Of a stretch of 64,000 nucleotides of DNA, positions 4,598 to 54,970 are shown in pieces. Below the pieces are notes generated by a model. The model saw nothing but the letters and a program-made list of their open reading frames with translations. It ran no database searches and had not been told where the DNA came from. The stretch comes from Aquilaria yunnanensis (lineage: Eukaryota > Streptophyta > Magnoliopsida > Malvales > Thymelaeaceae). The translations under genes were made by a program, and so were the position numbers. Numbering within the stretch: position 1 is the first letter of the stretch; every line of letters begins with the position of its first letter. The DNA lies in assembly GCA_039654915.1 (NCBI GenBank), contig CM077594.1:10196001-10260000 (forward strand), written 5' to 3'.

Positions 4598-4867
4598 TTA
4601 CTTTATTATGCACTTATGCCTAAGTAGACATACTAACTCAACTCTTAAATGAATGTCATCAGATGGGCCTAAGTCATGAGAGAGCTTCTCTTGAACTGAG
4701 ACCCGTTGTTGAGTGAATCCGAGAGGATAGGTCGGATCTTGTGGGTTTTTGATGGGGGTTTGCACTGCCTTCCCCTTGATTAGCTCCATTAGATGCTTCA
4801 TTTGTTTAGCCATGTCCTCTATCTTTGACTCGATATCAGTGAGACGTCCTTCCATCTGTTCTGCCAT
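4598..4867 (-). pseudogene. Truncated gag of the older retrotransposon
   Basis: The 89-codon frame begins with MAEQMEGRLTDIESKIEDMA, nearly the same as the start of the young element's gag at 7304 (MAEQIEGRLIKIESKIESMA). It then continues through a stretch beginning NPQDPTYPLG that is missing from the young copy. It is therefore the amino end of a Tat/Ogre-type gag, predicted to form a short coiled coil, and it is cut off after the first ~70 family-like residues. The rest of gag and all of pol are absent on this side. It is read on the minus strand, consistent with the minus-strand LTR at 17601-19593. Confidence 0.75.
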
Positions 4868-5396
4868 TAGTCTTGTTTGAAGCCGAGTTGGATATCGGTG
4901 TTGAGTACCAATCTTTTACCTTTTTTAAAATAAGATTCTTTTTATCATACTTTATATGCCCATGATTGATGTGATGCCCGCATGCAATAAGTGAGCTTGA
5001 TTGTCTACTGTTGTGGAACTTCAAGACTTCTTGCTGACATAAAAAGGACAATAGTTAGTATAGTTTTATGCGTGATTTTGATGCATGAAGGGAAAAATAT
5101 GCTTGAAAAATAATCAAATCAACAAATGAAAAGTGAGATTAGTAACAAGTTATAATAGAATTGATATAAAGAAATAATATATAAGCCATCAGAGTCATAA
5201 AGAGGGAAAACATACGATTAAAGCAACAAAAATGGTCAAATGACAAAAGAGTTAACAACACTAGTGTAGAAGCACAAGCCAGTTACAAAAACAATGAAAT
5301 GAGTCAACTAAACAATATGTGTCTGTTATGGGAGTCCTAATGGATAGATCTATGGCCGCTATATGCGTAGGTAGTTTTTTGAAAGAAAGGCTATAG

Positions 5397-5401
5397 GTTG
5401 G
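5397..5401. repeat. Target-site duplication GTTGG, left copy
   Basis: The five bases before the 5' LTR are identical to those after the 3' LTR (17205-17209). They mark the insertion point within the leader of the older element. Confidence 0.9.
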
Positions 5402-6249
5402 TGTTGACACCCAATTTCGTCCGACCATAAAAAATTTTAAAAGAAATTAAATAAAAAAAATTATTATTTTTATTATTATTATTATTACTAAAAATTTTAA
5501 TTAGTTTAAAATACATTTTTTTTTGTGAAGATTTGATTTAAAATGATATATGTGTGTATTTGAAAGAAAAGAAAGGAAAGATTAAATCAAAAAGAAAAGA
5601 AAAATATAAGAAAGAAAAGAGAGAAAAGAAAAGAAAGAAAATAAAAAATAAAATTTTTTTATCTAAAAATTCTATAACAAAAAGAATTACGAATTAGTAA
5701 TTAAACTAATAATTAATTCCATAAAAGTAATAATTATATAACTAACAATAAATTTAATTTAATTTCCATATCCGGATGATCCGGCAGGATCTACGGTTTG
5801 GAAAATATCAAACTTTTTAAAATAAATAAATTAAATAAAAAGATAAAAAAATCCATATTTTTACAATATGGATAAAATTGTTTAAAATTTCACCAAATTC
5901 CGTGTCCAAATGACTCGGCAGAGTCCATGGTTCGGAATCAAAATCTTCCGTGTCCAAATGACTCGGCAGAGTCCATGGTTCGGAAGTATAAAATTTTATA
6001 CAAATTAACTTAAAAATCCACATTTCGACTAATTCAGTTAAAATCTCTAAATTAACTGAAAATTATTTAAAAGCAAAGCGAAACAAAATTAAAATCAACT
6101 AAGGTGCCAATTTTTAGGCGTTTTAACAAAGTTGTTTTAACGTAACCGTACTCCCGAACCCCCGAACTCTCGCAGACCAATATTTAAGGTGACCAATCGA
6201 CCTAGGTAAACAGATTGGTGGCGACTCCCGAAAATCCGACGTTGCCACA
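5402..6249 (+). repeat. 5' LTR (848 bp)
   Basis: It begins TGTTGACACCCAATTTCG and ends CCGACGTTGCCACA, with TG...CA termini. It matches 16357-17204 with no indel and four substitutions that I could count (in AAATTTAATTT, TATACAAATT, CATTTCGACT and TTTTTAGGCG). A ~38-bp segment with CCAAATGACTCGGCAGAG is directly duplicated inside the LTR (about 5899-5937 and 5949-5985). The short frame 5817-6023 spans that duplication and is not considered coding. Confidence 0.95.
5987..5993 (+). promoter_or_regulatory. Possible LTR TATA box
   Basis: TATAAAA lies about 260 bp before the end of the 5' LTR (equivalent at 16942-16948 in the 3' LTR). Its position would suit a U3/R boundary, but AT-rich sequence makes chance matches common. 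Confidence 0.3.
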
Positions 6250-6252
6250 GCT

Positions 6253-6276
6253 TGGCGACTCCACTGGGGATTCGAC
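6253..6276 (+). other. Primer-binding site, tRNA-Arg type
   Basis: TGGCGACTCCACTGGGGATT starts three bases after the 5' LTR. From memory, TGG plus the reverse complement of the 3' end of a plant tRNA-Arg reads almost the same. Use of tRNA-Arg is characteristic of Ogre and related Tat elements. The older element has a mutated version on the minus strand at 17577-17597. Confidence 0.8.
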
Positions 6277-6571
6277 GTTAGTGAGTCGAGCCTAAAGTTG
6301 ATTTGTTTTAATTTACTTTGCTTATTATGTGGATTTTTATAGGCTATATTTACTTAGCGAAAACATGCATTATGCATTCACAATATGAAGCTCTATACCC
6401 GAGCTTACTTAAATCGAACACGATTCTTTCTAAGCGGAATTGGTGTTGTTGTCCTTTTGAGGCCATGGTCTCCAAGCCTTCACCGGTTTCAAAGTAGCAA
6501 AGTAGTGTATTGCCTTCTGAGACGGTTAGTCTCTGCATGGGCCCACGAAAAGCTACGACTTGAATTAATCC

Positions 6572-6630
6572 ATTCCTTACATAAACCCTAGAGGGTAAGG
6601 AATCGGGCCGTCACTATAATTTAGTGACGG
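6572..6630 (+). other. Two adjacent hairpins in the retrotransposon leader
   Basis: The first hairpin pairs ATTCCTTAC (6572-6580) with GTAAGGAAT (6595-6603), a perfect 9-bp stem with a 14-base loop. The second pairs CCGTCACTA (6608-6616) with TAGTGACGG (6622-6630) around a 5-base loop. The older element keeps the first stem at about 17257-17285 with one compensatory pair change and one wobble. The position, about 320 bases after the PBS in the untranslated leader, would suit a dimerisation or packaging signal. Confidence 0.6.
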
Positions 6631-7003
6631 GATTCGGGAACTATCCCTTGCCTTTTTGATAAGCCACCTTATGCATATAGAACTCCCCACTTAACCATAG
6701 AACTGACCATAGTATTCCTCCTATTTACCAACGCCATAAGCATATCCTTGTTATGCTGTGTTGTTGCTCTACACTTTTATTTTCGTATTTATGGTTTTAA
6801 CTCATTTTTCCATAATAGTTCATGAGTTGTTAATTGCTATTTAAGTTATTAATAAACTTATCTTTCTTTTGTTATACTTCTGTTTTGTGCAAATATTCTT
6901 CATGCATCAAAACCACGCATCAAACTATGCTAACTTTTTGGTCTTTTTTATAACAACTAAAAGTCTTGAAGTTCCACGATAGTGGATAATCAAATTCACT
7001 CAT

Positions 7004-7197
7004 CGCATACATCCATTACATTAATCACGTGCATATAAAGTCTGATAAAAACATAATCTCATTGCATACATCCATTACATTAATCACGTGCATATAAAGT
7101 CTGATAAAAACATAATCTCATTGCATACATCCATTACATTAATCACGTGTATACAAAGTCTGATAAAAACATAATCTCATTTTTCCTACATGCATCC
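7004..7197 (+). repeat. 59-bp tandem repeat in the leader
   Basis: Three near-identical 59-bp units plus a decayed fourth lie just before gag. Each carries CATTAATCACGTGCATATAA, so each has a CACGTG palindrome and a TATAAAG-like box. The older element has a single equivalent unit on the minus strand near 4940-5000, so the amplification is specific to the young element. Confidence 0.85.
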
Positions 7198-7303
7198 ATT
7201 GCATCAATCACATACACATAGGATCTAATAAAATATACCTTACTTTTAAAAGGATAAAATTGGACATCGACACCGATATTCAACTCGGCTCCAAATAAGA
7301 TTA

Positions 7304-8200
7304 ATGGCAGAACAAATCGAAGGACGTCTCATAAAGATAGAGTCCAAGATAGAAAGTATGGCCGAACAAATGAGACAATTGATCGAGCTAATCAAGGCGA
7401 AAGCAATTCAAGAACCACAAGTTCAGCCACCCATGACAGAAAGAGAAATTGTCACTTTGTTTGTCCAGACACTGAAGTACCTATATTATGACGAACTCAT
7501 TGGCAATTCGGCAACTAATTTTTCTAACATTGTCATGTCTGGAGAAAGAATCGAGCATGAGATTAGGACTGGGAATATTGCTGAATCCTTTAATAATCCT
7601 ATGAAAAGAGGAGGACCATCCAGAAGAAAAGATGACGAAGTACAACAAATAGGACGCGGAAGAAGGATTCCCCTCGTGGATACTGTGGCTATCGGACCTC
7701 GCCTATCCTATTTTGCCAATGGGCCCGATAATTACCTTCCAAATAGGCCCAATGATTATCCTCTGAATAGGCCCAATAATTATCCTCCAAATAGGCCCAA
7801 TGATTATCCTTCCAATAGGCCCAACAATTATCCTTTTAACAGACCTAATCAGTCATGGCCACCTGCTCCTACTCCTCCAGTACCTGCACCAAGACCAAGA
7901 GAAGTTTTCACACCAATTTCCATGACTTATACTGAGTTATACCCAAAACTCATCGAAAGACAATTTATCCGTCCAATTCCTACAAAGCCATTCAAACCCC
8001 CATATCCAAGGTGGTATGACCCTAACATTACCTGCCCATATCATGATGGCGTTCCAGGCCATGGCTTGGAAAACTGCATGGCATTGAAGCGTATAGTTCA
8101 ACAATTAATCGAGTCAAAGTGGTTGGACTTTTCCGATGAGCCAAATGTCACCCACAATCCATTGCCGCCTCATCAAGCAAAACCAAGTCCAAGTTGCTAG
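7304..8200 (+). CDS. Internally deleted gag of the young element
   Basis: This 298-residue frame starts MAEQIEGRLIKIESKIESMA, a predicted coiled-coil start shared with the older copy. After about 45 residues it jumps directly into a later gag segment (TEREIVTLF, IVMSGERIEHEI), so the large central part of a normal Tat/Ogre gag, several hundred residues, is missing in frame. Residues ~145-185 hold repeats of the type NRPNDYPPNRPNNYP. Residues ~245-265 hold a histidine/cysteine cluster, CPYHDGVPGHGLENCMALK, typical of this gag group. No protease, reverse transcriptase, RNase H or integrase follows. The frame is open, so a shortened gag may be made, but particle assembly would probably need a helper element. 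Confidence 0.8.
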   Translation: MAEQIEGRLIKIESKIESMAEQMRQLIELIKAKAIQEPQVQPPMTEREIVTLFVQTLKYLYYDELIGNSATNFSNIVMSGERIEHEIRTGNIAESFNNPMKRGGPSRRKDDEVQQIGRGRRIPLVDTVAIGPRLSYFANGPDNYLPNRPNDYPLNRPNNYPPNRPNDYPSNRPNNYPFNRPNQSWPPAPTPPVPAPRPREVFTPISMTYTELYPKLIERQFIRPIPTKPFKPPYPRWYDPNITCPYHDGVPGHGLENCMALKRIVQQLIESKWLDFSDEPNVTHNPLPPHQAKPSPSC

Positions 8201-8784
8201 GCCCGATGTGATTGATAATTGAAAAGTGAAGATTTCGAGCTAGAATTACATTGACTTTGGAAGGCCTCCAAGTCAGATCTGACCTAACAGTCTGCATACA
8301 TTTTTCGAATGACAGGGAATCCTTTGAATAAACTTGTATCTTTGAAAGCTTGCAAAAGTAATCTAATAGTAAAAATCTTCTAGATTTAGTCCAGAATCTA
8401 GGGTGTAGTCTTTGTTAAATGGACACCTGCTATTCTTTTTCTGGTACAACAAAAAGATGTGATACGTGCATTCTACTACTTTCCATTTTTACACTCTTTC
8501 CATTATACTATCCATTATTGCTATCATACTTTGCTTGCTAAATGATATTACTTGTGGGGGAAAATAAAAAGTTAAGGGAGATTTAATAGTGGCGATCTTG
8601 AAAGTGCTGTCAAATCTAGTAAGAAGGATTTCATATGTTGCACCCCAACTCTCAAAAAAAAGAATTCATAGTGGTTATCAACATCCTTGCAAGAAGTCTG
8701 GGGTTAGCTTCCAAACAAGGTAGCTCTCATATTAAATGACTTCAGTGGCCTCCCAATTCTCACAAATGCTCAATACAAAAAAAG

Positions 8785-9120
8785 GTTCTCAGTCTTCCGC
8801 AACACAAACTCCAAAAAGAAAAAGTTCATCCCTTCCATCAAAAAGCCATTAAAGGGAAAATCAAAAAAAAAATCTAAAAAAAAAAAAAGAGAGACTGAGA
8901 AGCAAATAAAGCCACTTGAGTCATCTCACTTCAAGAAGGCTATGATCTCGGTTCTCCATAACACAAACTCAAAAAAAAAAAAAAAAAGGAAAAAGTTTAT
9001 CCCTTCCATCAAAAAGCCAACAAGGGAAAATTCAAAACCAAAAAGAACTGAGAACAAGCACGAGCAAGCAAGGCCACTTGAGTCATCTCACTTCAAGAGA
9101 GTTATCAAGTATGTCATCAC
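8785..9120 (+). repeat. ~166-bp tandem duplication
   Basis: Two copies share GGTTCTC, AACACAAACTC, TTCATCCCTTCCATCAAAAA and CACTTGAGTCATCTCACTTC in the same order. Differences are mostly in the A-runs. Confidence 0.7.
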
Positions 9121-9387
9121 CATAGCTCATACAAAAAAAAACAAAAAACAAAAAAAAAACAAAAAAAAACAAAAAAAAAAAAAGAAAAGAAAAAAAAGAA
9201 AACAAAAAAAGTGAGCTATGGATTCTAGACTGAAAACCTGCAAAGGCGGTTTAGAACACAAAAGCAATTTTCAAGCCAAGCATACATAAAGACCACAATA
9301 GTTGGGGGGCAACAGATGAGATCAAACTTTCTGGAAAAGGTGGCAAGTTTGAAGTCATCACTATTGAGTTTTTCACCATAATCAAAT

Positions 9388-9790
9388 CTGCTCACGAGTA
9401 GTATTAAAAGACCCTTCTTTCACACCATTAAAACTTAACTTCCTTCAGACTTAATATCCTCATTCAACTAAAAGACTATCATTGTGAATTATGTTTCTAC
9501 CTTATTTAATACTGCTCACGAGCAGTGTTAAAATACTCTTCTTTCACGCCACTCAAGCTTAACTTTCCTCAGACCTAAAATTTACCTCTTGATATTATCC
9601 TCATTCAGCTAAAAGACTATCATTGTGAATTATGTTTCTACCTTATTTAATACTGCTCACGAGCAGTGTTAAAAGACTCTTTTTTCACGCCACTCAAGCT
9701 TAACTTTCCTCAGACCTAAAATTTACCTCTTGATATCATCCTCATTCAGCTAAAAAACTATCATTGTGAATCATGTTTCTACCTTATTAC
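9388..9790 (+). repeat. Three-copy 124-141-bp tandem repeat with a palindromic start
   Basis: Units begin at 9388, 9512 and 9653. Units 2 and 3 open with CTGCTCACGAGCAG, whose arms CTGCTC and GAGCAG pair. The rest of each unit includes TTAACTTTCCTCAGACCTAA and ACTATCATTGTGAATTATG. The first unit is about 17 bp shorter. Confidence 0.8.
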
Positions 9791-10739
9791 CCTGCACAGT
9801 TTATGTCTTCGAGTTGGAAAGGGGAAGAATGACAGGATATTTTAATTAAAAACAAAGACCGTAAGTTACTTGGTCAAGCTTTGCAAATCGATGAAAGTTT
9901 TTCTTTAAGGCCAAACCATTATTCATTAATGTGTGTAGACTTAAAAGTGAGGACATAGCTTGAGTCTTTCTTTAATAAGATGTGGTTCTTGTAAGAGAAA
10001 TTTACGATCAAATGCCATCACAAAGGTCTAGAAATGCTCGACCTTCTGTTAAATCAAAGGCGAGATGATATTTCTTTCCACATAAACACCATATTCAGGG
10101 GGGCAAAGTAGTCTCTACGAAGCGTAAGAGGAGTACCGCCAACAAAGAAGTTCAATAGACAAGGGGGCAAGTCTTATGGATCAAAACATGAGTTCAAGGA
10201 AGAGCAATCATTCAGATTATAACATGGGAATAAGTAAGTGTCGGCACGGTCACAAGAAAAGGGGCAAAGCAGACATTGAAAGTAAAGCTTTTGATGGTAT
10301 CAAATCCATGACAATGGATGAGTACCCGAAAGAGATATAAATTATGAGGCGGGCCAACTTTAAAGAAATTGAGGCCAAAATTCAAAGAACAAGTCAAAGA
10401 AAGAGGATTTTGAAAAGAGTTGGGCTTTTGAGGCAGCGAACAAAAGCTGGAAAGCATAAAGAGATTCAATGATAGTCCAAGAAGGCCATCACAAAGAGGA
10501 TCCAGTAAAACAAAGACATAAAGAACTAGATCCATAAAAAAAAAAAAAAAAAAGCCATTAGTTACACATGCTCTGCATTCATGCATTTCATATCATGCAT
10601 ACATAGCCTTTACATAACAAGGACCAAACGGGAAGCACATCTACGGCACAGCTACAGCAATATAAGCTGAGATCTCAATGTCATCAGCTCTTACCAATCT
10701 ATCACTGGATACACAGCTAATATGCGGGACCAACCCGTA

Positions 10740-11110
10740 TCAGGAATTCAAGAATAAAGTAGACAATATTGTCAAAAGCTTGGCTACCGATTCAATAATC
10801 GAGGCTACACCTGGAAGGATCGGATTGACGCCAGCTAGTAGTATCCAAGATAAGAGATAGCTATAGCCAAGGATAAGGCAGATATAAAAAAAAAATATAT
10901 AAAATAGACAATATTGTCAAAAGCCTGGCAATTGATTCAATAATCGAGGCTACACCTGGAAGGACAGGATTGATGCCAGCTTAACAGCATCCAAGATAAG
11001 AGATAGTCAAAGATAAGGCAGACATCAAGAAATATTGTCGTTGAAAATTCGTCAAAAGCGGACAATGGATTCAATAATCAAGGACGAAATCGACGTCAGC
11101 TGGATGGAAT
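10740..11110 (+). repeat. ~148-bp tandem repeat, decaying, before the first cargo gene
   Basis: Units near 10757, 10905 and about 11030 share GACAATATTGTCAAAAGC, GATTCAATAATCGAGGC and CACCTGGAAGGA. The third is strongly diverged. GACAATATTGTC is a perfect 12-base palindrome in the first two units. The block lies directly upstream of the first zinc-finger gene and could hold its promoter. Confidence 0.7.
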
Positions 11111-11252
11111 ATCTATCACATCAAAATAAAGTAGGATCCACTTTTCCGGTTAAGCGACGGATACGGTACTCCGTGACTCTCAAGTCGGTTCTCTCAATTG
11201 CCCATAATAACTGATCATTTCCTCCCTCCTTTCTTTTACTTTCTCCTAGAAA

Positions 11253-11801
11253 ATGGATCCTACTTTTTCTGCCTTGCAAAAATATTTTCCTTCTCTCCCA
11301 ATGAACATCCTCAAAAAGATCTACCAAGTTCGCTGTGAACGATTAAGAGCTCTGATGCATAAAGGAATCCCTGAAGATGTGCGGTGGTTAATTGAAGCTA
11401 AGGTTCGTCTGGCAGGTGAAATCCCAGAGGCATTTGTGTCTCACATGCCTGGTGTAGGCAAAAGCTCTTATGCCAAAAAGCGAAGAGCGAGGAGACTAGG
11501 CGTCTGTCATAAATGCGGACGCTGGACCTGTAATACTAAATGTCGTTCTTTAGGGATGATCTCTGATAATCGAGAAGATAAAATACGATTCATTAAGAAT
11601 GGCCTGAGTAAGGACTCGTTGGATGATATCCAATTGACTCTTGAGACGCATTCTTGTGGATCTGTGCAACGTGAACTTCTTGGTTTATGGAGCATTTTTC
11701 ATGAAGAACGAAACCGTTACAGTCCCGGGAATCTGACTGTAAATGACCCTGTTTGCCAGCTTGTAAGAAAACTGGATGGGAAGCAAATCCTCGACTCATA
11801 G
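11253..11801 (+). CDS. Cargo zinc-finger protein 1, resembling flexivirus nucleic-acid-binding proteins
   Basis: This intronless frame encodes 182 residues. Residues 70-82 form a basic block (KSSYAKKRRARRLG), followed at once by a zinc-binding pattern C-x2-C-x4-C-x3-C (Cys 85, 88, 93, 97), then IRFIKNGL (111-118). A basic YA[KR][KR]RRA block leading into such a finger and a following FI..G segment is the hallmark I recall for the small cysteine-rich nucleic-acid-binding proteins of carlaviruses and relatives. Those proteins bind RNA/DNA, can enter the nucleus and can counter silencing. The flanking parts (residues 1-60 and 120-182) are not recognised. The start is the first ATG and matches copy 3. 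Viral origin is inferred from motif layout; a fast-evolving plant family is the alternative. Confidence 0.65.
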   Translation: MDPTFSALQKYFPSLPMNILKKIYQVRCERLRALMHKGIPEDVRWLIEAKVRLAGEIPEAFVSHMPGVGKSSYAKKRRARRLGVCHKCGRWTCNTKCRSLGMISDNREDKIRFIKNGLSKDSLDDIQLTLETHSCGSVQRELLGLWSIFHEERNRYSPGNLTVNDPVCQLVRKLDGKQILDS

Positions 11802-11844
11802 AAGCCGTTAATCCCGTTACTAGACGTAAAACCAGTGGAAGATG

Positions 11845-11967
11845 TGAGCCACAGTCACAATCACTGTACATACAATTTATCATATTTAAAATTTTCCATT
11901 TTTCTTTTAATAATGTATTTGCTTCCGTAAGTGTAATCGACACGTTATCCATTTCATCGCTATAAAT
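11845..11967 (+). promoter_or_regulatory. Promoter module of cargo gene 2
   Basis: The module includes a CTGTACATAC start, a TTTAAAATTTTCC stretch, AATAATGTATTTGCTTC, ATCCATTTCATCGC and the box TATAAAT at 11961-11967, 81 bases before the ATG at 12048. The same blocks recur in the same order before genes 3 and LOG, with TATA boxes at 12747 and 13820. Confidence 0.65.
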
Positions 11968-12047
11968 GCATGTTCTTCCAGTCGGTTATCTAAGTTTCCT
12001 TCAATAACTAATTCATTTCCCTCTTCTCTCAAATTCTTCTCTCATAA

Positions 12048-12596
12048 ATGGATTCTACTCTTTCTGCACTGTGAAAATACTTTCCTTCCCTTCCAATAAA
12101 AGTCCTTAAAAAGATCTACCTTGCTAGATGTGAAAGAATCAGAGTTTTTACACGCAAAGGCATTCCCGATAATGTGCAGTGGATAATTGAAGCTAAGGTC
12201 CGTCTGGCGGGTGAAGTTCCAGATGCATTTATGCCCCACATGCCCGGTTTAGGTAAAAGCCGTTATGCCAAAAGGCGAAGAGCAAAGAGACTAGGCGTGT
12301 GTTATAAATGTGGGCGATGGAATTGTAATACTAAATGTCGCTCTTTAGGATACATCTCCATAAATCGTGAAGGTAAAAGAAAATTCATTAAGAATGGCCT
12401 GCGTAAGGAATCTCTGGAAGATATCCGAGAGACTCTTGAAACGCATTCTTGTGGAAAAGTGCAAGGTGAAATTATCGGTTTATGGAGGACTTACCATAAA
12501 GAACGAAACCGTTACAGTCTTGGGAATGTGACTTTAAACGACCCTGTTTGTCAGTTTGTAAGAAAATTGGATGGGAAGCAAATCCCCGACTTATAG
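12048..12596 (+). pseudogene. Cargo zinc-finger protein 2, stop at codon 9
   Basis: This is the second tandem copy, the same 549-bp length as copies 1 and 3, with no indel. Codon 9 is TGA where copies 1 and 3 have CAA for Gln. The remaining frame is fully open. The basic block (KSRYAKRRRAKRLG) and all four zinc-finger cysteines are kept (C-x2-C-x4-C-x3-C). The next in-frame ATG is at 12231, which would still give a protein containing the basic block and finger. A start nearer the stop would have to be a non-ATG codon. It is either a recent pseudogene or a shortened protein that begins at 12231. Confidence 0.65.
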
Positions 12597-12649
12597 AAAG
12601 CATTGAAGTCATTACTGGACATAAATCAGTGGAAGATGAGAGCCACGGT

Positions 12650-12753
12650 CATAATTCCTGTACATATAAGCTGTCATTTGGCTTTTCTTTTGACAATAAT
12701 ATACTTGCTTCTGTAAGTGTAATTAACGCATTATCCCTTTCATCACTATAAAT
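12650..12753 (+). promoter_or_regulatory. Promoter module of cargo gene 3
   Basis: The block order is the same as before gene 2: CCTGTACATATAAGCTGTC, GACAATAATATACTTGCTTC, TTATCCCTTTCATCAC, then TATAAAT at 12747-12753. The ATG at 12813 follows 59 bases after the box. Confidence 0.65.
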
Positions 12754-12812
12754 ATGTGTTAGTTATTATCGTTTCCTACAATCACTAATTTCTTTCTTTG
12801 CCTCCTTCATCA

Positions 12813-13361
12813 ATGGAGTCTTCTCTTTCTGCCCTACAAAAGTATTTTCCTTCCTTCCCAATAAATGTTCTTAAAAAGATTTATCAAGCTAGATGTGAAC
12901 GATTCAGAGTATTTATGCACAAAGGCATTCCTGATAATGTGCGGTGGCTAATTGAAGCTAAGGTTCGTTCAGCTGGTGAAGTTCCAGAAGCGTTCTTTCC
13001 CCGTATGCCCGGCTTTGGTAAAAGCGCTTATGCCAAAAAAAGAAGAGCAAAGAGGCTAGGCGTTTGTCATAATTGTGGATGGTGGATTTGCGGCAATAAA
13101 TGTCGTTCTCCAGGAGTGATCACCAGAAATCGTAGTGATAGAATAAGATTCATTAAGAATAGCTTGCGTAAGGAATCTCTAGAAGATATCCGAGAGGTTC
13201 TTGAAGCGCATTCTTGCGGAATAGTGCAATTTGAGGTTGTTGGATTATGGATAATTCTCCAAAAAGAACGAGAACGTTACAGTCTTGGGAATCTAACCCT
13301 AAACGACCCTGTTTGCCAGTTTGTGAAAAAGCTAGATGAGATGCAAATCACCGATTCATAG
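12813..13361 (+). CDS. Cargo zinc-finger protein 3, resembling flexivirus nucleic-acid-binding proteins
   Basis: The protein has 182 residues, aligns to copy 1 end to end without gaps and is roughly 70 percent identical by eye. It keeps the basic block (KSAYAKKRRAKRLG), the four finger cysteines in CHNCGWWICGNKC, and the FIKN segment. The start is the ATG at 12813; the frame is also open upstream but without ATG. Equal length and an open frame despite about 30 percent residue divergence suggest past selection on the protein. The copies lie head to tail, each with its own TATA-containing upstream region, so they arose by DNA-level tandem duplication of gene plus promoter rather than by three separate captures. 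Confidence 0.65.
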   Translation: MESSLSALQKYFPSFPINVLKKIYQARCERFRVFMHKGIPDNVRWLIEAKVRSAGEVPEAFFPRMPGFGKSAYAKKRRAKRLGVCHNCGWWICGNKCRSPGVITRNRSDRIRFIKNSLRKESLEDIREVLEAHSCGIVQFEVVGLWIILQKERERYSLGNLTLNDPVCQFVKKLDEMQITDS

Positions 13362-13410
13362 AAAGCATTGAAGCCGTTACTGGACGCAAAGCCAGTAGAA
13401 GACGAAACAA

Positions 13411-13795
13411 GGTCACGATTACTGTACGTGCTACCTGTCGCTTTTGAAATTTTCATCCCCTTTTGGTAATAATGTATCCATTCTTGACATGAACCAAAGT
13501 CACGATTACTGTACGTGCTAGCTGTCGCTTTTGAAATTTTCCTCCCCTTTGGCAATAATGTACCCACTCCTGACACGGACTACTATATATAGCTGCGACT
13601 TTTGAAATTTTCCTTCTCTTCCAACAATCACGTACCTACTCCTGACGTAAGCTACAGTAGTGACTACTGTACATGCTAGCAGCTATTTTGAAAATTTTCC
13701 TCCTCTTTTAACGATAGTGTACCCATACCTGACCAGAGTCATACTCGTGACTACTGTGAATAGCTGGCAATAATGTATCCATTCTTGAAAATAAA
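13411..13795 (+). repeat. Five-fold ~85-bp upstream repeat before the LOG gene
   Basis: Units begin near 13411, 13498, 13578, 13660 and 13747. Each carries variants of GATTACTGTACGTGCTAGC, CTTTTGAAATTTTCCTCC and AATAATGTACCCACTCCTGAC. Single copies of the same unit lie before genes 2 and 3. One unit contains TGACGTAAGC (13643-13652), a TGACG motif of the kind bound by TGA/bZIP factors. The arrangement looks like an amplified upstream activating region. Confidence 0.75.
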
Positions 13796-13819
13796 ATTAT
13801 TGCCTTATCTCTTCATCTC

Positions 13820-13828
13820 TATAAATAT
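13820..13828 (+). promoter_or_regulatory. TATA box of the LOG cargo gene
   Basis: TATAAATAT is preceded by TTATCTCTTCATCTC, matching the TATA context of genes 2 and 3. It lies only 40 bases before the ATG at 13860, so the leader would be very short. This box, which lies downstream of the ATG at 13773, is the reason to prefer the later start. Confidence 0.6.
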
Positions 13829-13859
13829 ATCCTCTTTTCTCACAAGGGTAAGGATAGGA

Positions 13860-14489
13860 ATGGAGAAAACCCCAACTCGTAAATCCCGAAGTATTTGTGT
13901 ATTTTCTGGGGCTTTTCCTGGAAAAGATGAAGAGTATTTAAAAGCAGCCAACCATTTGGGTAGAGTATTAGCTGAGCGAAAAATACATTTAGTTTATGGA
14001 GGAGGTAGTGTCGGATTAATGGGAGGTGTAGCATCAGCAGCATCTCTAGAAGGAAGTCAAGTTCTGGGCATTATCCCTGGACCTCTGAAATTTATTTCTG
14101 GGGGCACGATTGGAGAAGAATTAGTGGTTAAAAATTTGCAAGAGCGTGTGTTACAAATGCTTTTAAATGCTGATGCTTTTATCGCTCTACCAGGTGGTTT
14201 TGGCACATTGGGAGAAGTCTTTCAAATTGCTTCCATGGCCCAACTTAATTTGCATAAGAAACCCATTGGGCTTTTAAATGTTAACAATTTCTTTACAGGT
14301 CTGATAGCTTTTATAGATTATGCTATGCAGAAGAATTTCATATCAAGAGTGGCACGGCGAATCATAATATCCGCAACAACTGCTGAAGAATTGCTAGATA
14401 AAATACAAGCTTTTATTCCTGAACCAGATCCAGCAATGATTCAGATAGACTGGACACGACAGTCTTTCCCGACCAGTTCACTCCTATAA
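13860..14489 (+). CDS. Intronless LOG-type cytokinin riboside 5'-monophosphate phosphoribohydrolase (cargo gene)
   Basis: The protein has 209 residues, a normal LOG length. LOG enzymes release active cytokinin bases from their riboside monophosphates in the cytosol. Visible motifs are SICVFSG (10-16), GGGSVGLMG (47-55, nucleotide loop), ADAFIALPGGFGTLGE (104-119; PGGxGTxxE with the catalytic Glu at 119) and Arg 96, at the position of the conserved catalytic Arg. It departs from usual plant LOGs: Val follows Arg 96 in place of the common Lys, and Gly precedes the catalytic Glu. Host LOG genes normally have several introns; this copy has none, which suggests origin through RNA followed by divergence. 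It shares its promoter module with the zinc-finger genes. An ATG at 13773 would add 29 residues but lies upstream of the TATA box. Confidence 0.85.
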   Translation: MEKTPTRKSRSICVFSGAFPGKDEEYLKAANHLGRVLAERKIHLVYGGGSVGLMGGVASAASLEGSQVLGIIPGPLKFISGGTIGEELVVKNLQERVLQMLLNADAFIALPGGFGTLGEVFQIASMAQLNLHKKPIGLLNVNNFFTGLIAFIDYAMQKNFISRVARRIIISATTAEELLDKIQAFIPEPDPAMIQIDWTRQSFPTSSLL

Positions 14490-15060
14490 TGGTCCTCTAC
14501 TCACCCTGTTGAAGTATTGTGGAAGAAAGAAGCGATCTGATCCGTTTTTCTTGTCCTTTAGTTTTATTATCAGCATTTTCTTTCGCGTTTCAGTTTTTCT
14601 TTTCAGGAAATTTCTTTTTTTTTTTTATAATATAGTTTCGTCCAGGCTGATATTAAAACCATAGGACAATGCCTTTAGGTTGGAATGGCTGAGTAAAGAG
14701 TAATTTTTGTTACTCTTGAGACGCATCCTATTAGGTCTACTAGGCATAACATTTTGGGGTAGTTAAGCTTTAACCTTATTCGGATCACATATCTCACAAG
14801 GGAATCTATATTTACTGAAGAAAATATTAGATGAACCTTGAATATTGATTCCAAACATCCGTTCCCTTTACATAATTTGTCAGTGTTATTGTCATCATCA
14901 AGATTCACTCGTTTTATCGAAGCCTAATTCTTTGCGCTCGCCTATTATGAAAATTCACACTTTCGAAGAAAATTATTCCAATTTCAATTGCTTTCATATA
15001 AATTTCGCTCGAGGTCCTAAGGAAAGCTCCTTAGCCTCAAAATCAATTTTCATCATCGGG
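14490..15060 (+). other. LOG 3' flank and start of the hairpin-rich region
   Basis: No gene is visible. T-rich sequence with TATAATATAG near 14629-14638 could hold the LOG polyadenylation region. At 15010-15040, GAGGTCCTAAGG and CTCCTTAGCCTC form an inverted pair, a variant of the hairpin repeated in the following minisatellite. Confidence 0.5.
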
Positions 15061-16190
15061 GTTTTAAGGATGGAACCTTTGCCTCGAAAATAATCAATTT
15101 TCATCATCGGGGTTTTAAGGATGGAACCTTTGCCTCGAAAACAATCAATTTTCATCATCGGGGTTTTAAGGATGGAACCTTTGCCTCGAAAACAATCAAT
15201 TTTCATCATCGGGGTTTTAAGGATGGAACCTTTACCTCGACATCAATCAATCAATTCGAGGTTTTAAGGATGAAACCTTTACCTCGACATCAATCAATCA
15301 ATTCGAGGTTTTAAGGATGGAACCTTTGTCTCGACATCAATCAATCAATTCGAGGCTTTAAGGATGGAACCTTTACCTCGACATCAATCAATCAATCCGA
15401 GGTCTTAAGGATGGAACCTTTGCCTCGAAATCAACCAATCAATCTGAGGTTTTAAGGATGGAACCTTTGCCTCGAAATCAATCAATCAATCCGAGGTTTT
15501 AAGGATGGAACCTTTGCCTCGAGATCAATCAATCAATTCGAGGTTTTAAGGATGGAACCTTTACCTCGACATCAATCAATCAATCCGAGGTTTTAAGGAT
15601 GGAACCTTTGCCTCGAGATCAATCAATCAATTCGAGGTTTTAAGGATGGAACCTTTACCTCGACATCAATCAATCAATCCGAGGTTTTAAGGATGGAACC
15701 TTTGCCTCGAAATCAATCAATCAATCCGAGGTTTTAAGGATGGAACCTTTGCCTCGAGATCAATCAATCAATTCGAGGTTTTAAGGATGGAACCTTTACC
15801 TCGACATCAATCAATCAATCCGAGGTTTTAAGGATGGAACCTTTGTCTCGACATCAATCAATCAATTCGAGGCTTTAAGGATGGAACCTTTACCTCGACA
15901 TCAATCAATCAATCCGAGGTTTTAAGGATGGAACCTTTGCCTCGAAATCAACCAATCAATCTGAGGTTTTAAGGATGGAACCTTTGCCTCGAAATCAATC
16001 AATCAATCTGAGGTTTTAAGGATGAAATCTTTGTCTCGAGATCAATCAATCAATTCAAGGTTTTAAGGATGGAACCTTTGCCTCGAAATCAATCAATCAA
16101 TTCGAGGTTTTAAGGATGGAACCTTTGCTTCGAAATCAATCAATCAATCCGAGGTTTTAAGGATGGAACCTTTGCCTCAGAAACAATCAA
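15061..16190 (+). repeat. 47-51-bp minisatellite before the 3' LTR
   Basis: About 24 head-to-tail units of GGTTTTAAGGATGGAACCTT followed by TGCCTCGAAATCAATCAATC. The first few units are 51 bp, the others 47 bp with an ATCAATCAATCAAT linker. Each unit can fold, as GAGG pairs with CCTC and AAGG with CCTT. Higher-order similarity (alternating units ending CATCAATC, AAATCAATC and GATCAATC) suggests segmental duplication. Minisatellites in the 3' untranslated region are known for Tat/Ogre elements. Confidence 0.95.
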
Positions 16191-16344
16191 TTTTCCTTCA
16201 ACGATAGGAGAGCTCCTATCACCGAGGTTCTAAGGAGAGTTCCTTAACCTCAGGATTTAGGCGGCGAAAAGGTTTTCAATGTCTAGCTAAGCCGGACGAA
16301 ATTTGGTAACGACTTTGCATACATCATGTCTCATGAAGCATGCA

Positions 16345-16356
16345 AAGGGGGGCAGC
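16345..16356 (+). other. Polypurine tract
   Basis: AAAGGGGGGCAGC directly precedes the 3' LTR start TGTTGACACCC, the normal site of plus-strand priming. Similar G-run plus CA phrases occur inside the element near 9304, 10097 and 10161. Confidence 0.85.
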
Positions 16357-17204
16357 TGTTGACACCCAATTTCGTCCGACCATAAAAAATTTTAAAAGAA
16401 ATTAAATAAAAAAAATTATTATTTTTATTATTATTATTATTACTAAAAATTTTAATTAGTTTAAAATACATTTTTTTTTGTGAAGATTTGATTTAAAATG
16501 ATATATGTGTGTATTTGAAAGAAAAGAAAGGAAAGATTAAATCAAAAAGAAAAGAAAAATATAAGAAAGAAAAGAGAGAAAAGAAAAGAAAGAAAATAAA
16601 AAATAAAATTTTTTTATCTAAAAATTCTATAACAAAAAGAATTACGAATTAGTAATTAAACTAATAATTAATTCCATAAAAGTAATAATTATATAACTAA
16701 CAATAAATTAAATTTAATTTCCATATCCGGATGATCCGGCAGGATCTACGGTTTGGAAAATATCAAACTTTTTAAAATAAATAAATTAAATAAAAAGATA
16801 AAAAAATCCATATTTTTACAATATGGATAAAATTGTTTAAAATTTCACCAAATTCCGTGTCCAAATGACTCGGCAGAGTCCATGGTTCGGAATCAAAATC
16901 TTCCGTGTCCAAATGACTCGGCAGAGTCCATGGTTCGGAAGTATAAAATTTTATAAAAATTAACTTAAAAATCCACATTTTGACTAATTCAGTTAAAATC
17001 TCTAAATTAACTGAAAATTATTTAAAAGCAAAGCGAAACAAAATTAAAATCAACTAAGGTGCCAATTTTTGGGCGTTTTAACAAAGTTGTTTTAACGTAA
17101 CCGTACTCCCGAACCCCCGAACTCTCGCAGACCAATATTTAAGGTGACCAATCGACCTAGGTAAACAGATTGGTGGCGACTCCCGAAAATCCGACGTTGC
17201 CACA
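16357..17204 (+). repeat. 3' LTR (848 bp)
   Basis: Same length as the 5' LTR at 5402-6249, with four substitutions. It is followed by the GTTGG duplication at 17205-17209. Confidence 0.95.
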
Positions 17205-17209
17205 GTTGG
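17205..17209. repeat. Target-site duplication GTTGG, right copy
   Basis: Matches 5397-5401. Confidence 0.9.
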
Positions 17210-17600
17210 TTCTCGAATCCCTCTTGCTAAGTCCTATCGGAATAGAAAATGCCTAATTCCTCACCCACAAAGGTTACGTGAGAAAGGATTAATTCGAGTC
17301 GTAGTTTTCATGGTCCTATGGGGTGACCATCATCATACTCCGTCAACACTATTTACTATTACGGATTAGAGAAAATGCGTAGACTATTGTCTCACACGAC
17401 TAGCCTACCCCGGGTGTTTTGCAAAATTTGGTTGGAATGAGCTTGGGTATTGAGCTTATTATGCATGCTGAAGTGTGTGCGTGTCAGAACCTGAAAGAAC
17501 ACAACACATTAAATCAGTATGTCAAGAAACAATCAAGAAAGAAAAAGAAGAACCCGAAACCCCTTTTATGGCCAGACTCATCCCCAGTGGAGCACCAAGT
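17210..17600 (-). mobile_element. Leader and PBS of the older retrotransposon (minus strand)
   Basis: On the minus strand the sequence runs from a PBS like that of the young element (TTGGTGCTCCACTGGGGATG, 17577-17597) into a leader homologous to 6277-6630, with the phrase ACTCGAATTAATCC and the conserved hairpin at about 17257-17285. It is cut at 17209 by the young element and continues at 5401. The small open frames here are in the wrong strand and have no family resemblance. Confidence 0.8.
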
Positions 17601-19593
17601 TGTAGCAACGCAATTTTTAGGAGTCGCCACCAATCAATTTCACCTAGGTCAATTGGATACCTGTTATGGTCTACAAAAGATTCTGAGATCGTGAGTCGGT
17701 TACGCTAAAATAACCTTATTATAACGCTCGTAAATTGGCACCATGGGATTCAATTTTATCTGTTCCTAACTTTTTATTTCTTAACCAAATGTTCGATTAA
17801 GAATGACTTTTATGAATTTTATTTAATTTAATTTTAAACCGTGAATCTTATCAGACCAACCGAATATGGAATCCTAGATGTCCTCGAAATCTTGGGACTT
17901 TATCAAATCCACCAAGAATTTAAAAGGAACATCTTGTTCAAAACTTTGAATCTTATCAGACCAATCGGATTCGAACGAATAATCCGTCTCGGGATTTTAT
18001 CAAATCACCAAGAACAGACCTTTGAAAAATAAATGTTAAGTATTAAAAAGAATTGTCTTCATTTAGTTTCTTTCTAATCTCTGGATAATGAGGAAAGTAA
18101 AAAATATCTGAGCAATTAAACAACTAATTATTTTTTTGTATTATTACTTTTTTTTTAAGACACATTATGAGATCTAAATAAAGAAAACAAATCGCATGAT
18201 GCTAAAGTTAAAAGAAAATAAAGATAACTAAAGTGATTTAAGAAAATAAAATAAGATAAAATAAAACAAACACTCTAGGTTATGTTCCTATGTGGATTTA
18301 ATGGATATATTTAATGAATGACCAAACAAACCAATAAGAAAAGAAACAAAGAAAAATAAATAACAAAAACTTGCTGTCAGTGACTCATCTACAAAAAAAG
18401 AAAACATGTTAGTGACTTAATGGATGAAATAAAAAGTCAGAGGGCTAGAAGGGAGTTATACCGAAAGAGTAGTTTGACTGGGTTGGATCCGGGTCGGGAC
18501 GCAGGTTTCAAACGGGTCTCGCTCTATTTGGCCTCAATTCTTCCTTCTTGGGCGGTGATGGAATGAACAGGCTTCAGGGCTGGGCTCGTCAATGGCAGGT
18601 GACACTGGGTGGTTCGAGAACTATAGCCGGTGACCATGTAGTGGATGGGCTCGACGATTGGAATGGAAGGACGGCGATGAAGGGCCCCCTGGAGCGACTG
18701 TGGGAGGCGAGACTAGGCGCCTAGCGGTGGCTGGAGTGACGGCGTATAGCTGAGGAGGTGGAGCGTCTGGAGGGGGAGACTAATCGGGAAGGTGAAGCGT
18801 CGGGCATAGAGGGAGATCAGGGGTGGCGGCAGTGATGGCAAAAGGTTAGGTTTTTTTGGAAGAGGCTGCAAGAGGACCAAGGACTAAGGCTGCAGTTGGA
18901 CCTTTTTTTTGGCTGAGCTTAGGGTTTTCGAATTTCTTCCTCCCTTTTCATGTCAATAGTGACCCATATTTATACTAGGGAGTCTTAGGCGAGATTAGCT
19001 AGGCTTTCCCAGTTTAAAACTGATCCAAATTCAATTTAAGGGGATTAGGATATAATTTGGTAAAGTATCAGTTTAAGTCCAATAAAACTCTCAAGCTGCT
19101 AATCTTGCCCCAAATTCTGTGCAAATTTCAATTTAACCCAAAACTTCTCTAATCTGTCAATTAAGCCCAAAACTTCCTAAAATTTTTCAGATTTCCTTAA
19201 AACTTCAGGATCTCAACAGATTTACCCCCAAACTCTCAATTTCTGATAAATTTACCTCAAACTTTCCAATTTTTCCCTAAAACCCTCTAATAATTCCTAG
19301 TTTTTTCCCAAACTTTCCAATTTTTCCTAAATTGACCCCACAAGACCTTTAGGATTTCAAATTAGTACCTAAACTAAATTAACTCCTATTTCTACCTTGG
19401 ATGACCACTTAAACCAAAATAACAATGTAACCTAAATGTGACTAGACCAACTAACTTTAAAATGCCAACAATGACCTAAATATCATAACAATTGACCAAA
19501 TTGCCCCCTAAAAATGAAAATACCACATAAACTAATTTTCTTAACCTAAAAGCTTAAAAAAAGTCAGTGCCTGGACAAAATTGGGTGTCAACA
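17601..19593 (-). repeat. 5' LTR of the older retrotransposon (1993 bp, minus strand)
   Basis: On the minus strand it begins TGTTGACACCCAATTTTGTC (right end, 19593) and ends GTTGCTACA (left end, 17601), matching both termini of the young LTR. Near the left end GGAGTCGCCACCAATC and CACCTAGGTCAATTGG match the young LTR end. It is more than twice as long, with a GC-rich middle (about 18430-18960). TATAAATA on the minus strand at 18967-18974 sits just before that GC-rich part and is a good candidate LTR promoter. Confidence 0.85.
18967..18974 (-). promoter_or_regulatory. Candidate TATA box in the older LTR
   Basis: TATAAATA on the minus strand (context CTAGTATAAATATGGG) lies at the step from AT-rich to GC-rich sequence within the LTR, as expected for a U3/R border. 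Confidence 0.45.
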
Positions 19594-35622: not shown

Positions 35623-37085
35623 ATGATGATCGGGCCGAACTTCGCCGACGAGATGGACTGTGGCAGCTTCTTTGACCACATCGACGACCTTCTCGATTTC
35701 CCGACCGAAGATGTCGACACAGGTCTGTCCGCTTCCGACTCCGCCGCGTTTCCCAGCATTTGGAGCTCTCAGAACGAGTCATTGCCCGGCACCGACTCGG
35801 TCTTCTCGGGTGGCAACAGCGCTTCTGACCTCTCCGCCGAACTCTCTGTTCCGGTAAGCTTTTGCTGGCGTACCCGTCACTGATTTTTACTTGAATTAAT
35901 AGTTTTTTACTGGGTTTTGCGTTTTTCAATTCAAATCAAACCCGCGGCGGAAGAGTCATTGTCAATGGACACGCTACGTGTAAATTATTATTATTTTTTT
36001 TGTAATTTAGCGGAGCGAGGGTAATTTTGTAATTTGGTAGGCATTGATTGTCGGCGAAATGGATGGAATAATCCAGTGCGATTATTATGGGAGTCACGTG
36101 ATTATCCATGTGATTCGTTATCTAAAGGTTGAATATTTTATTATCAAATAAGCACAAACAGGAAGCAGCTAGCTTCTGATGCAAGCAAACATCCTTTTTC
36201 AAAAACCTTTTTTCAATTACTACTATTAGTGTGGGAAATTTTATTGAATGATGAAAAAAATTCTGAATGTGATTTGAATTTCCATTTTGGCTGTTGCAGT
36301 ATGAAGATATTGTTCAGTTGGAATGGCTCTCAAACTTTGTTGAGGATTCTTTCTCTGGAGGAAGCCTCACAATCAACAAGCAAGAGTCCCCTTCAGCCAT
36401 TGGCAAGGACTCTTCATCCCACCACCAATTCCAGACCTCCAGCCCGGTTTCCGTCCTAGAAAGCAGCAGCTCCTGCTCCGGGGACAAGACCGTGCCCCAC
36501 AGCCCGGAGGCAGCAGCTCTTGGGAGGTGTGGCCGTGCGCGCAGCAAGCGTCCACGGCCCCCTACATTCCAGCCCCGCCCTGCCATTCAGCTCATCTCCC
36601 CCACTTCCTCAGTCAATGAGAATGAATCTCCGAACCCTGTGATCGTCCCCAAGGTTCTTTCAGATTCTGAAAATTATGCTGAATCCAGGCTGTTGATCAA
36701 GATTCCAAAGCATGCCAATCCGGAGCACAAGAAGAAAAAGAAGATCAAGTTTTCTGCACCGTCTGCTCCCCCCACAGAGAGCAATCCAGGGCAGGCGGTC
36801 AGGAAATGTATGCATTGTGAAATCACCAAGACTCCGCAGTGGAGAGCCGGGCCAATGGGGCCTAAAACCCTGTGCAATGCCTGCGGGGTTCGCTACAAGT
36901 CTGGCAGGCTCTTCCCTGAGTACCGCCCTGCGGCAAGTCCAACATTTGTCCCCTCTTTGCACTCGAATTCCCATAAGAAGGTGATCGAGATGAGAAACAA
37001 GCCCGTGTTTCCATCTGGAATGATGGTTGCGAATTCACCTGAACTCATCCCGAACAACAGCAATCCGGCGCTGGATTACATGTGA
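35623..37085 (+). CDS. GATA transcription factor, subfamily A type
   Basis: There are two exons, 35623-35853 and 36300-37085, with a phase-0 GT-AG intron (CCG|GTAAGC ... TTGCAG|TATG), giving 338 residues. Near the carboxyl end is one class IV GATA finger, C-x2-C-x18-C-x2-C: CMHCEITKTPQWRAGPMGPK, then LCNACGVRYKSGRL, which binds WGATAR DNA in the nucleus. Upstream are an acidic amino end (DHIDDLLDFPTEDVD), the EWLSNFVEDSFSGGS motif typical of the GATA5/6/12-like group, and a basic KKKKKIKF stretch. Residues after the finger include LFPEYRPAASPTFVPSLHSN, also typical. Length and exon count match this subfamily. The second ATG three bases later is equally possible. Related factors act in light and growth responses, but no specific role can be read from the sequence. 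Confidence 0.93.
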
Positions 37086-47886: not shown

Positions 47887-48989
47887 TCGGAACTTTCTAC
47901 AATACCCATCTCCGAAAAGGGGATATCCATGGCCCCCCAATCTTGATCGTTGATCTTGATTTGCAAGAGAAAAGAGAAACAGGCTGACTGGGGTAACAGG
48001 TGAGGGAGGGAAAAGAAAAAAAAGTGATAAAAAATTTTAAAATGTATAAATATTTCTAAAAAGTAAAAAAAAAAAAAAATTAAAAACAAAATTTTTTTTA
48101 AAAAGTGATTAAATGTAAAAAAAAAAGTGATAAATGTTAAAAATTTGGTAAATATTTTTAAAAAGCTATTAAGAACTGAAAAAGTGATCAATAATCCTAA
48201 AATGCAATAAAAAAATTTAAAAAATGATTAAATAAAAAAAAGTGATAAAAATTACAAAAGTGAAATATTTTTTAAAAAAAGTGATTAAACTAAAAAAACC
48301 AAATAAATATTAAAAAATTGATTAAATAAAAAAAAGCAAATAAATTTTCTCAAGTCACATATTAAATACAAAAAAAGCAAATTTCGCTTTGTTTCTAATT
48401 TTATTCATTTTTTTTAATTTTAATCATTTTTTTAATTTTTAATCACTTTTTTAAATGTTTTATTGCTTTTTTTTTTTGTTTTCAAACGCTTTTTTTTATC
48501 TTTTTTTTTTAAAAATTTTTTTCATATTTAATAACATTTTTTATATTTGATCGCTTTTAAAAAATTTTTTTTCACTTTCCTAATTAGTAATCGCTATGTT
48601 TTCTAATTTTAATCACTTTTTTTTAAACTATTTTTTTATTTTTAATCACTTTTTCTTATTTTTTAATAGTTTTTTTATTATTTTATCAGTTTTTTTTAGG
48701 GTTTTTATTTAATCAATTTTTTTTGTTTTAATTGCTTTTTATTTATTTAATTGATTTTCTAAAAAAATGTTTGCTTTTTTTAGTTTTTTTATTGCTTTTT
48801 TTATTTAATCAATTTTTTAAATTATTTATTGCAATTAAAAATTATTTATCACTTTTTCAGTTTTTATTTGCCTTTTAAAAATATTTACCAATTTTTAACA
48901 TTTATCACATTTCCTTTATTTTATCACATTTTTTAAAAAAATTTATCATTTTTTTTTTACAGTTAATTGTTTTTTCTTACATTTTATCG
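47887..48989 (+). repeat. Left inverted arm of the foldback element
   Basis: From 48010 to about 48385 the arm is A-rich, with AAAAAGTGATTAAA and AAGTGATAAA words. It switches to their complements (TTTAATCACTTTTT) around GCAAATTTCGCTTTGTTTC, so the arm is itself partly palindromic. Confidence 0.85.
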
Positions 48990-54919: not shown

Positions 54920-54970
54920 AATCTTAACTGAGCAACACAAAAGGAGAGAGCTTTCACCCCAAATTGCATA

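Follow-up and report, generated by a model that had tools for sequence, protein, structure and literature searches.

The DNA analysed here, hereafter the window, is a stretch of 64,000 nucleotides from Aquilaria yunnanensis (contig CM077594.1, positions 10,196,001 to 10,260,000), and it carries on its plus strand, at 5402-17204, a long terminal repeat (LTR) retrotransposon with three tandem genes for virus-type zinc-finger proteins (NABP1, NABP2 and NABP3) and one gene for an enzyme of the LOG type. We consider, with slightly more confidence than doubt, that this element belongs, as a member without pol, to an Ogre-like Ty3/gypsy family, and that the selected NABP-LOG cassette of the family would likely benefit it through weaker silencing and more active cytokinin in the cells where it replicates. 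The family itself exists, in high copy number and under selection, and was known before only in part; the roles of its proteins are those that we infer. All positions refer to the window, and the features of the element lie on the plus strand.

Structure and age of the element

The element presents all the features of an LTR retrotransposon, that is, paired LTRs, a target-site duplication, a primer-binding site (PBS) and a purine tract. The 5' LTR (5402..6249) and the 3' LTR (16357..17204) are 848 bp long each and differ by exactly four substitutions. They are flanked by the duplication GTTGG (left copy at 5397..5401, right copy at 17205..17209), and the internal region of 10,107 bases contains a PBS of 18 bases located 3' of the 5' LTR (6253..6270) and a purine tract 5' of the 3' LTR (16344..16352). 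These features, together with the lack of pol, had been described in an earlier note made from the sequence alone, and they were confirmed by sequence comparison. The PBS is presumably of the tRNA-Arg type, in line with papers on Ogre. The Jukes-Cantor divergence of the LTR pair is 0.0047 and, by this value, the insertion is young, as had been claimed.

A gag-derived open reading frame (ORF) of 298 amino acids (aa) is located at 7304..8200. It gave no match in the Pfam search, and about 610 bases of the gag of its relatives are gone between 7412 and 7416. The stretch between this ORF and the zinc-finger genes contains A-rich parts. NABP1 (11253..11801), NABP2 (12048..12596), NABP3 (12813..13361) and the intronless LOG gene of 209 aa (13860..14489) come next, and 15060..16191 is taken up by a tandem array with 23.8 copies of a 47-bp unit. 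No pol was found at 5300-17300 when pol sequences from three pol-bearing relatives served as queries (zero matches), and the integrase of another plant, used in the same way, gave zero matches in the window. The window copy is, in the sense of encoding no pol, not autonomous.

Regarding the surroundings, the element is inserted within a related element of opposite orientation, evidenced by inverted matches to the leader/PBS side at 4754-5162 and 17580-17742. The start of a gag frame of this outer element is found on the minus strand at 4867-4754 (71% identity over 38 aa).

Copies of the element in the host genome

The search for further copies covered the host genome of 842 Mb. A 33-base pattern of the LOG active site, with at most 3 mismatches, was found at 2,679 places, and its reversed control at 0. 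With the NABP1 query, the best 150 of 8,489 candidates were all full length at 97% or more, 149 of them without a stop, and with the LOG query the best 150 of 3,665 matched residues 1-208 or 1-209 at 98-100%, all 150 without a stop; such lists of best matches exaggerate the integrity of both genes. In the 22 loci examined for this arrangement, LOG was always found behind NABP, three times as a partial match only. The same cargo is present at many loci, as the earlier note had expected.

Concerning the LTR, the best 40 of 3,991 candidate places were scored. The 38 matches outside the window cover LTR positions 161-848 (one from 191) with 98-100% identity, and 35 of these 38 fall in same-strand groups whose neighbours are spaced 11.4-15.1 kb apart. 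A second locus, at C8:18.44 Mb, follows the internal region colinearly in two stretches (98.7% and 96.2%) and presents gag, NABP1-3 and LOG matches without stops. Since its LTR is about 2.55 kb long, the window LTR is a short variant of the family LTR, and because about 1.7 kb is missing from both window LTRs, the shortening is older than this insertion. The possibility of an assembly join of separate insertions was rejected, because the internal region recurs colinearly at this second locus. Like this objection, the two others that had been raised beforehand, a sole copy and a decayed cargo, failed on the genomic copies.

A head-to-tail array of elements was also observed at C5:95.207-95.247 Mb (L047, L048, L051), where four evenly spaced LTRs enclose three NABP loci.

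Purifying selection on the cassette genes

When all pairs of copies were compared, the ratio of nonsynonymous to synonymous divergence (dN/dS) was 0.139 for LOG (19 ungapped of 22 stretches; bootstrap 0.084-0.221, which understates the error because the rows share ancestry), 0.296 for NABP2 (24 loci), 0.197 for NABP3 (22 loci) and 0.197 for NABP1 (29 loci), this last value being biased low because the loci were picked by their NABP1 similarity (L070 and L072 were chosen otherwise or in the same way). Compared with the window alone, the values were 0.231 for NABP1, 0.363 for NABP2, 0.337 for NABP3 and 0.215 for LOG. The rows left out were one gapped NABP2, two gapped NABP3 and three gapped LOG, as well as four NABP2 and five NABP3 loci below the match filter; three of the 19 LOG rows kept are partial. 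Copies without stops amounted to 28/29 for NABP1, 20/24 for NABP2, 21/22 for NABP3 and 16/19 for LOG.

The distribution of the variable columns over codon positions 1, 2 and 3 was 13, 16 and 37 in NABP1, 31, 36 and 58 in NABP2, 19, 11 and 39 in NABP3, and 31, 17 and 47 in LOG. In the three spacers it was 14, 8 and 14; 12, 14 and 20; and 11, 13 and 13. A third-position excess is present in all four genes and in none of the three spacers, and the overall variability of the spacers is not above that of the genes. Judged from these alignments, the NABP genes and LOG are under purifying selection, which answers the comparison among copies that the earlier note had proposed.

It is hardly credible, then, that the cassette genes are unused passengers from transduction. 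Gene transduction by retroelements is known, and some copies are indeed broken: NABP2 of the window is closed by an in-frame stop at codon 9, so that of the three zinc-finger genes announced only two are intact, and stops were found in three of the 19 ungapped LOG copies (three of the 22 being gapped). However, the dN/dS of 0.14-0.30, the third-position excess in genes and not in spacers, and the retention of the TATA motif in nearly every copy (see below) do not fit with unused genes. Of 24 further ungapped NABP2 copies compared from the genome, none has the codon-9 stop and 20 are open. Passive cargo was rejected on dN/dS.

Pol-bearing relatives

The 29 other NABP loci that were fetched are all colinear with the window from 10899 to about 13.2-13.3 kb, the end of the fetched stretch. 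Upstream of 10899, 18 loci continue to the end of the stretch (9.74-9.81 kb), L056 and L067 do so partly, and nine diverge; in two of these nine, the sequence at 10899 resembles what we take to be the C-terminus of an integrase. Three of the nine (L071, L113 and L114) were extended upstream and contain gag and pol frames, open to varying degree. The Pfam domains in these pol-bearing copies are Retrotrans_gag, G-patch, reverse transcriptase (RT), two RNase H domains (RT_RNaseH and RVT_3, within one ORF) and integrase, and an ORF before gag gave DUF7745, with PMD just below the cut-off. In L114, gag and RT are in two different ORFs, with 188 bases between the end of the first stop-to-stop ORF (gag) and the next one (RT). 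Excerpts of two papers describe Ogre with separate gag and RT ORFs and two RNase H domains (PMC6317226, PMC9289625). Since the domain set and the 188-base gap between gag and RT fit the published Ogre, the layout can be called Ogre-like.

Pol-bearing and pol-less members share the same NABP-LOG cassette, so the cargo is not confined to the pol-less form. The exact PBS of the window is present in two of the three pol-bearing copies, and no PBS was found in L071. Because pol-bearing relatives with the same cargo exist and two of three carry the exact PBS, the proposed spread by a helper is plausible: the pol-less form would be mobilised by Gag and Pol of these relatives.

Zinc-finger genes

The three NABP genes are tandem units of 549 bp, and all three queries gave Pfam matches to Viral_NABP and Carla_C4 above the curated cut-offs, which upholds this part of what had been claimed about them; NABP2 entered the test as its 121-aa ORF. 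NABP1 and NABP3 are open, with 182 aa each. Among the three genes of the window, dN/dS is 0.22-0.35 and dS is 0.45-0.85, and by this dS the triplication is old. Furthermore, a basic region and a Cx2Cx4Cx3-4C finger are found in 111 of the 120 NABP relatives listed.

LOG gene

The LOG frame is open and in sense orientation, as had been described, and it matched Pfam Lysine_decarbox with an E value of 1.2e-30. The start compatible with the TATA box is the one at 13860, and an ATG in the same frame is also present at 13773. The protein reached 149.9 bits with TIGR00730 (cut-off 96.35), and it did not reach the stricter NCBIfam equivalog CtkRMPhLog (99.1 of 300 bits). The LOG fold, the PGGxGTxxE motif and the catalytic Arg and Glu are all present. 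The structure model has a predicted local distance difference test (pLDDT) score of 83, and its superposition on Arabidopsis 2a33 gave a root-mean-square deviation of 1.7 and a TM-score that is 0.91-0.92 for the target and 0.77 for the query. R96 is conserved in 116 and E119 in 117 of the 120 listed relatives, and E119 aligns with a position where 5zbj has Glu and 5zbk has Ala. On this analysis, the protein is predicted to release cytokinin.

Other characteristics set the element-type proteins apart. The residue after R96 is Lys in 120/120 LOG3-like proteins and in only 4/120 element-type proteins. Moreover, LxLxL is found within the last 14 residues of 98 of the 120 nearest LOG relatives and in 0 of 120 LOG3-like proteins, and shuffled sequences give 1.75; the C-termini of the element-type LOGs of other plants (P0121-P0240) usually carry basic residues plus LxLxL. 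The LOG of the window has no C-terminal LxLxL. This tail is presumably an EAR motif. It is improbable, although these numbers and the loss of Lys after the catalytic Arg in 116/120 point in that direction, that LOG is no longer an enzyme and is mostly a folded carrier of an EAR-like tail that would recruit TOPLESS, with the tail lost in the window family. R96 and E119 are nearly invariant, the latter aligned with the residue mutated to Ala in 5zbk, and the tail-less LOG of the window family is still under selection. In the open-access literature, a search for EAR or TOPLESS with retrotransposons gave nothing relevant among the matches listed.

Relatives in other plants and viruses

The LOG relatives considered are 120 listed of 7,710, and 40 of these 120 belong to Reevesia pubescens, on 15 differently labelled chromosomes. 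A tree was built with 51 proteins, with a cellular sample of LOG3-like proteins plus LOG8 and a bootstrap that is not settled. In this tree, the 28 sampled LOGs of the element type (that of the window and 27 foreign ones, putatively from retrotransposons) are separated from the rest by a branch whose support is 100/94, and 19 cellular LOGs are apart. Three Xanthoceras proteins, which are among the 120 relatives, adjoin the element-type LOGs outside the element clade.

Gene models in which NABP is fused to a following LOG, in the same order as in the window, are present in cotton (P0103) and Citrus (P0111, P0114), and the Citrus ones suggest the same kind of element. Equal-sized contigs among the listed NABP and LOG matches were 7 versus 2.5 expected and, from 2 kb upwards, 3 versus 0.19; this coincidence is no more than a hint.

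A more distant case is L001 (DAIEQH010000041.1), a 3.3-kb contig filed under a Nomurabacteria metagenome-assembled genome, which is likely plant contamination. It contains an integrase frame and, 204 bases on, an NABP gene. It matches the window with 74% over 746 bases, both flanks of NABP included, and the dN/dS values of the window NABP1, NABP2 and NABP3 against it are 0.22, 0.22 and 0.24. Its integrase is 32-34% identical to those of the pol-bearing relatives of the window and looks, in our judgement, Athila-like; NABP seems to be in the same place in two element lineages. A pyrimidine tract with CAG, 5' of NABP in L001, is a possible splice acceptor.

In the viral contigs, no NABP relative was found with the single sequence (6 stretches) or with the alignment (51 stretches), and the single-sequence LOG query gave zero matches. 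The LOG alignment query gave 29 loci with distant LOGs (26-33% identity). These viral-contig searches found no virus with the NABP and LOG pair.

Promoter motifs and upstream modules

CTATAAA is present three times on the plus strand of the internal region, 41-88 bases 5' of the ATGs of NABP2, NABP3 and LOG. The corresponding TATA boxes, CTATAAAT, are at 11960..11967, 12746..12753 and 13819..13826, and they are preceded by upstream modules at 11846..11952 for NABP2, 12638..12738 for NABP3 and 13404..13811 for LOG, where about five copies of the module stand in tandem and the last is incomplete. The sequences 5' of these three genes are mutually alignable, and no TATA box of the shared type was found for NABP1. 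Three sites in the window match TTCATCNCTATAAATR perfectly, and allowing up to two mismatches added none. Among the copies, the 15-base motif (at most one mismatch) is found at 30/30 loci for NABP2 and 29/30 for NABP3, window included, and in 20/20 stretches for LOG.

These motifs bear on whether the proteins could serve the replication of the element instead of acting on the state of the host, which we regard as rather unlikely. In such a case, NABP, placed where env would be, would be an accessory protein that attaches to RNA or cDNA of the element for packaging or for transport out of or into the nucleus, and the role of LOG, in the particle or in the cell, would be related to nucleotides. 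The position of NABP directly 3' of the end of pol in the pol-bearing copies and in L001 would agree with it, as would the basic region and finger of the relatives, and excerpts of PMC11963269 and PMC7264820 propose accessory functions of this sort for additional ORFs found in plant elements. Nevertheless, it leaves a hormone enzyme without reason, and the own TATA boxes of NABP2, NABP3 and LOG are unlike a genome-length transcript.

Proposed role of the cassette

The preferred reading remains that the cassette damps silencing and raises cytokinin to the benefit of the element. NABP2, NABP3 and LOG would be driven by their own promoters, and a longer element transcript would supply NABP1. NABP may bind nucleic acids in the nucleus and weaken silencing or alter host transcription, by analogy with the cysteine-rich proteins (CRPs) of carlaviruses. 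In an excerpt of PMC12172455, carlavirus CRPs are reported as silencing suppressors, and one CRP as a transcription factor causing hyperplasia. LOG, to go by its relatives, would free cytokinin and favour dividing cells, from which new copies could be inherited. A broader proposal, possible but on the doubtful side, is that a eudicot-wide lineage carries a virus-style cassette (a tandem, nuclear silencing suppressor or transcription factor of betaflexivirus type plus a cytokinin-activating LOG, mostly with an LxLxL tail that would recruit corepressors) which would lead to dividing, poorly silencing cells and to thousands of copies, pol-less ones included.

Besides the interrupted copies and the sampling effects mentioned above, several observations weigh against the preferred reading. 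The Pfam scores of NABP lie at only 21.5-29.4 bits, the cut-offs being 20.9 and 23, and at the sequence level NABP only distantly resembles viral proteins. The pLDDT of its structure model is 57, which is poor, and the best of the viral fold matches reached an E value of 0.09. The window LOG is without Lys after R96 and has Gly at a site where 114/120 relatives have Glu. TTCATCNCTATAAATR is not rare by chance, with 1.16 matches expected at two mismatches and at least three in 11 of 100 shuffles. Finally, no LOG frame was found in the remaining 980 bases of L001 behind NABP, and because of this absence NABP could travel without LOG.

With the same weak model of NABP, nine of the ten top matches in the viral fold library are named plant-virus proteins, six of them silencing suppressors, all with E of at least 0.09. 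The fold as proof of viral kinship was dropped given the weakness of the model.

Plant retrotransposons are usually viewed as gag-pol parasites awaiting lapses in silencing. The present family, which is very abundant, retains under purifying selection a virus-type zinc-finger gene together with a gene for a hormone-activating-type enzyme. If the preferred reading is true, this would be a transposon altering host development and defence through dedicated genes, and the predicted roles are open to ordinary reporter, enzyme and expression assays.

Other features of the window

Two host-type genes are present in the window, a GATA zinc-finger ORF (36273-37085) and an auxin response factor with B3 and ARF_AD domains (54932-57101). 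In addition, a 3.3-kb stretch at 47890-51156 presents an 83% match to its own reverse complement.

Comparison with known systems

The statement that no such retrotransposon had been described holds for the NABP partner, which is unreported in our searches, and fails for the enzyme, as LOG-type domains in Gypsy elements are known. Steinbauerova et al. 2011 reportedly placed LOG-like ORFs in Athila-like elements. No retrotransposon with a carlavirus-type or NABP gene was found in the open-access literature, and PMC9289625 was the sole relevant report on LOG and retrotransposons among the matches listed. Excerpts of that paper give YgdH (LOG-type) domains in Gypsy consensuses from two Citrus species, and from poplar with a filter off, and state agreement with Steinbauerova et al. 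2011. These elements share with the present one a LOG-type domain in a Gypsy element, whereas those excerpts describe neither an NABP partner nor promoters, and neither a test for selection nor a form without pol. In the part of the main text of PMC7264820 that was covered, LOG, cytokinin, YgdH and nucleic acid binding are not mentioned.

Regarding the proteins, the NABP and CRP proteins of carlaviruses and related viruses (PF01623, PF05515) also have a basic region and a Cys finger, with Pfam matches above cut-off, but the protein of the window has 182 aa, its own finger spacing and a retrotransposon as carrier, and the kinship is based on weak profile matches. Cellular LOG3 and LOG8 have the fold and the R/E active-site residues in common with the element LOG, which is on a separate branch of the tree, is intronless and has lost the Lys after the Arg.

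Among the elements, Retand with extra ORFs resembles the family in its long region between pol and the 3' LTR, its tandem arrays and a possible nucleic-acid-binding protein, but in the excerpts of PMC11963269 the extra ORFs are antisense (TRP28), in contrast with the sense NABP and LOG described here. Ogre-related elements of Phalaenopsis also carry an added enzyme domain, 2-ODD (m6A demethylase), according to excerpts of PMC9289625; the enzyme is another one and its activity is stated in the title, while the LOG activity is predicted here. Finally, the pol-bearing relatives share with Ogre the ORF before gag, the spacing of about 190 bases between separate gag and RT ORFs, and the two RNase H domains, and the family differs from Ogre in the sense NABP-LOG cassette between pol and the 3' LTR and in a window copy without pol and without the ORF before gag.

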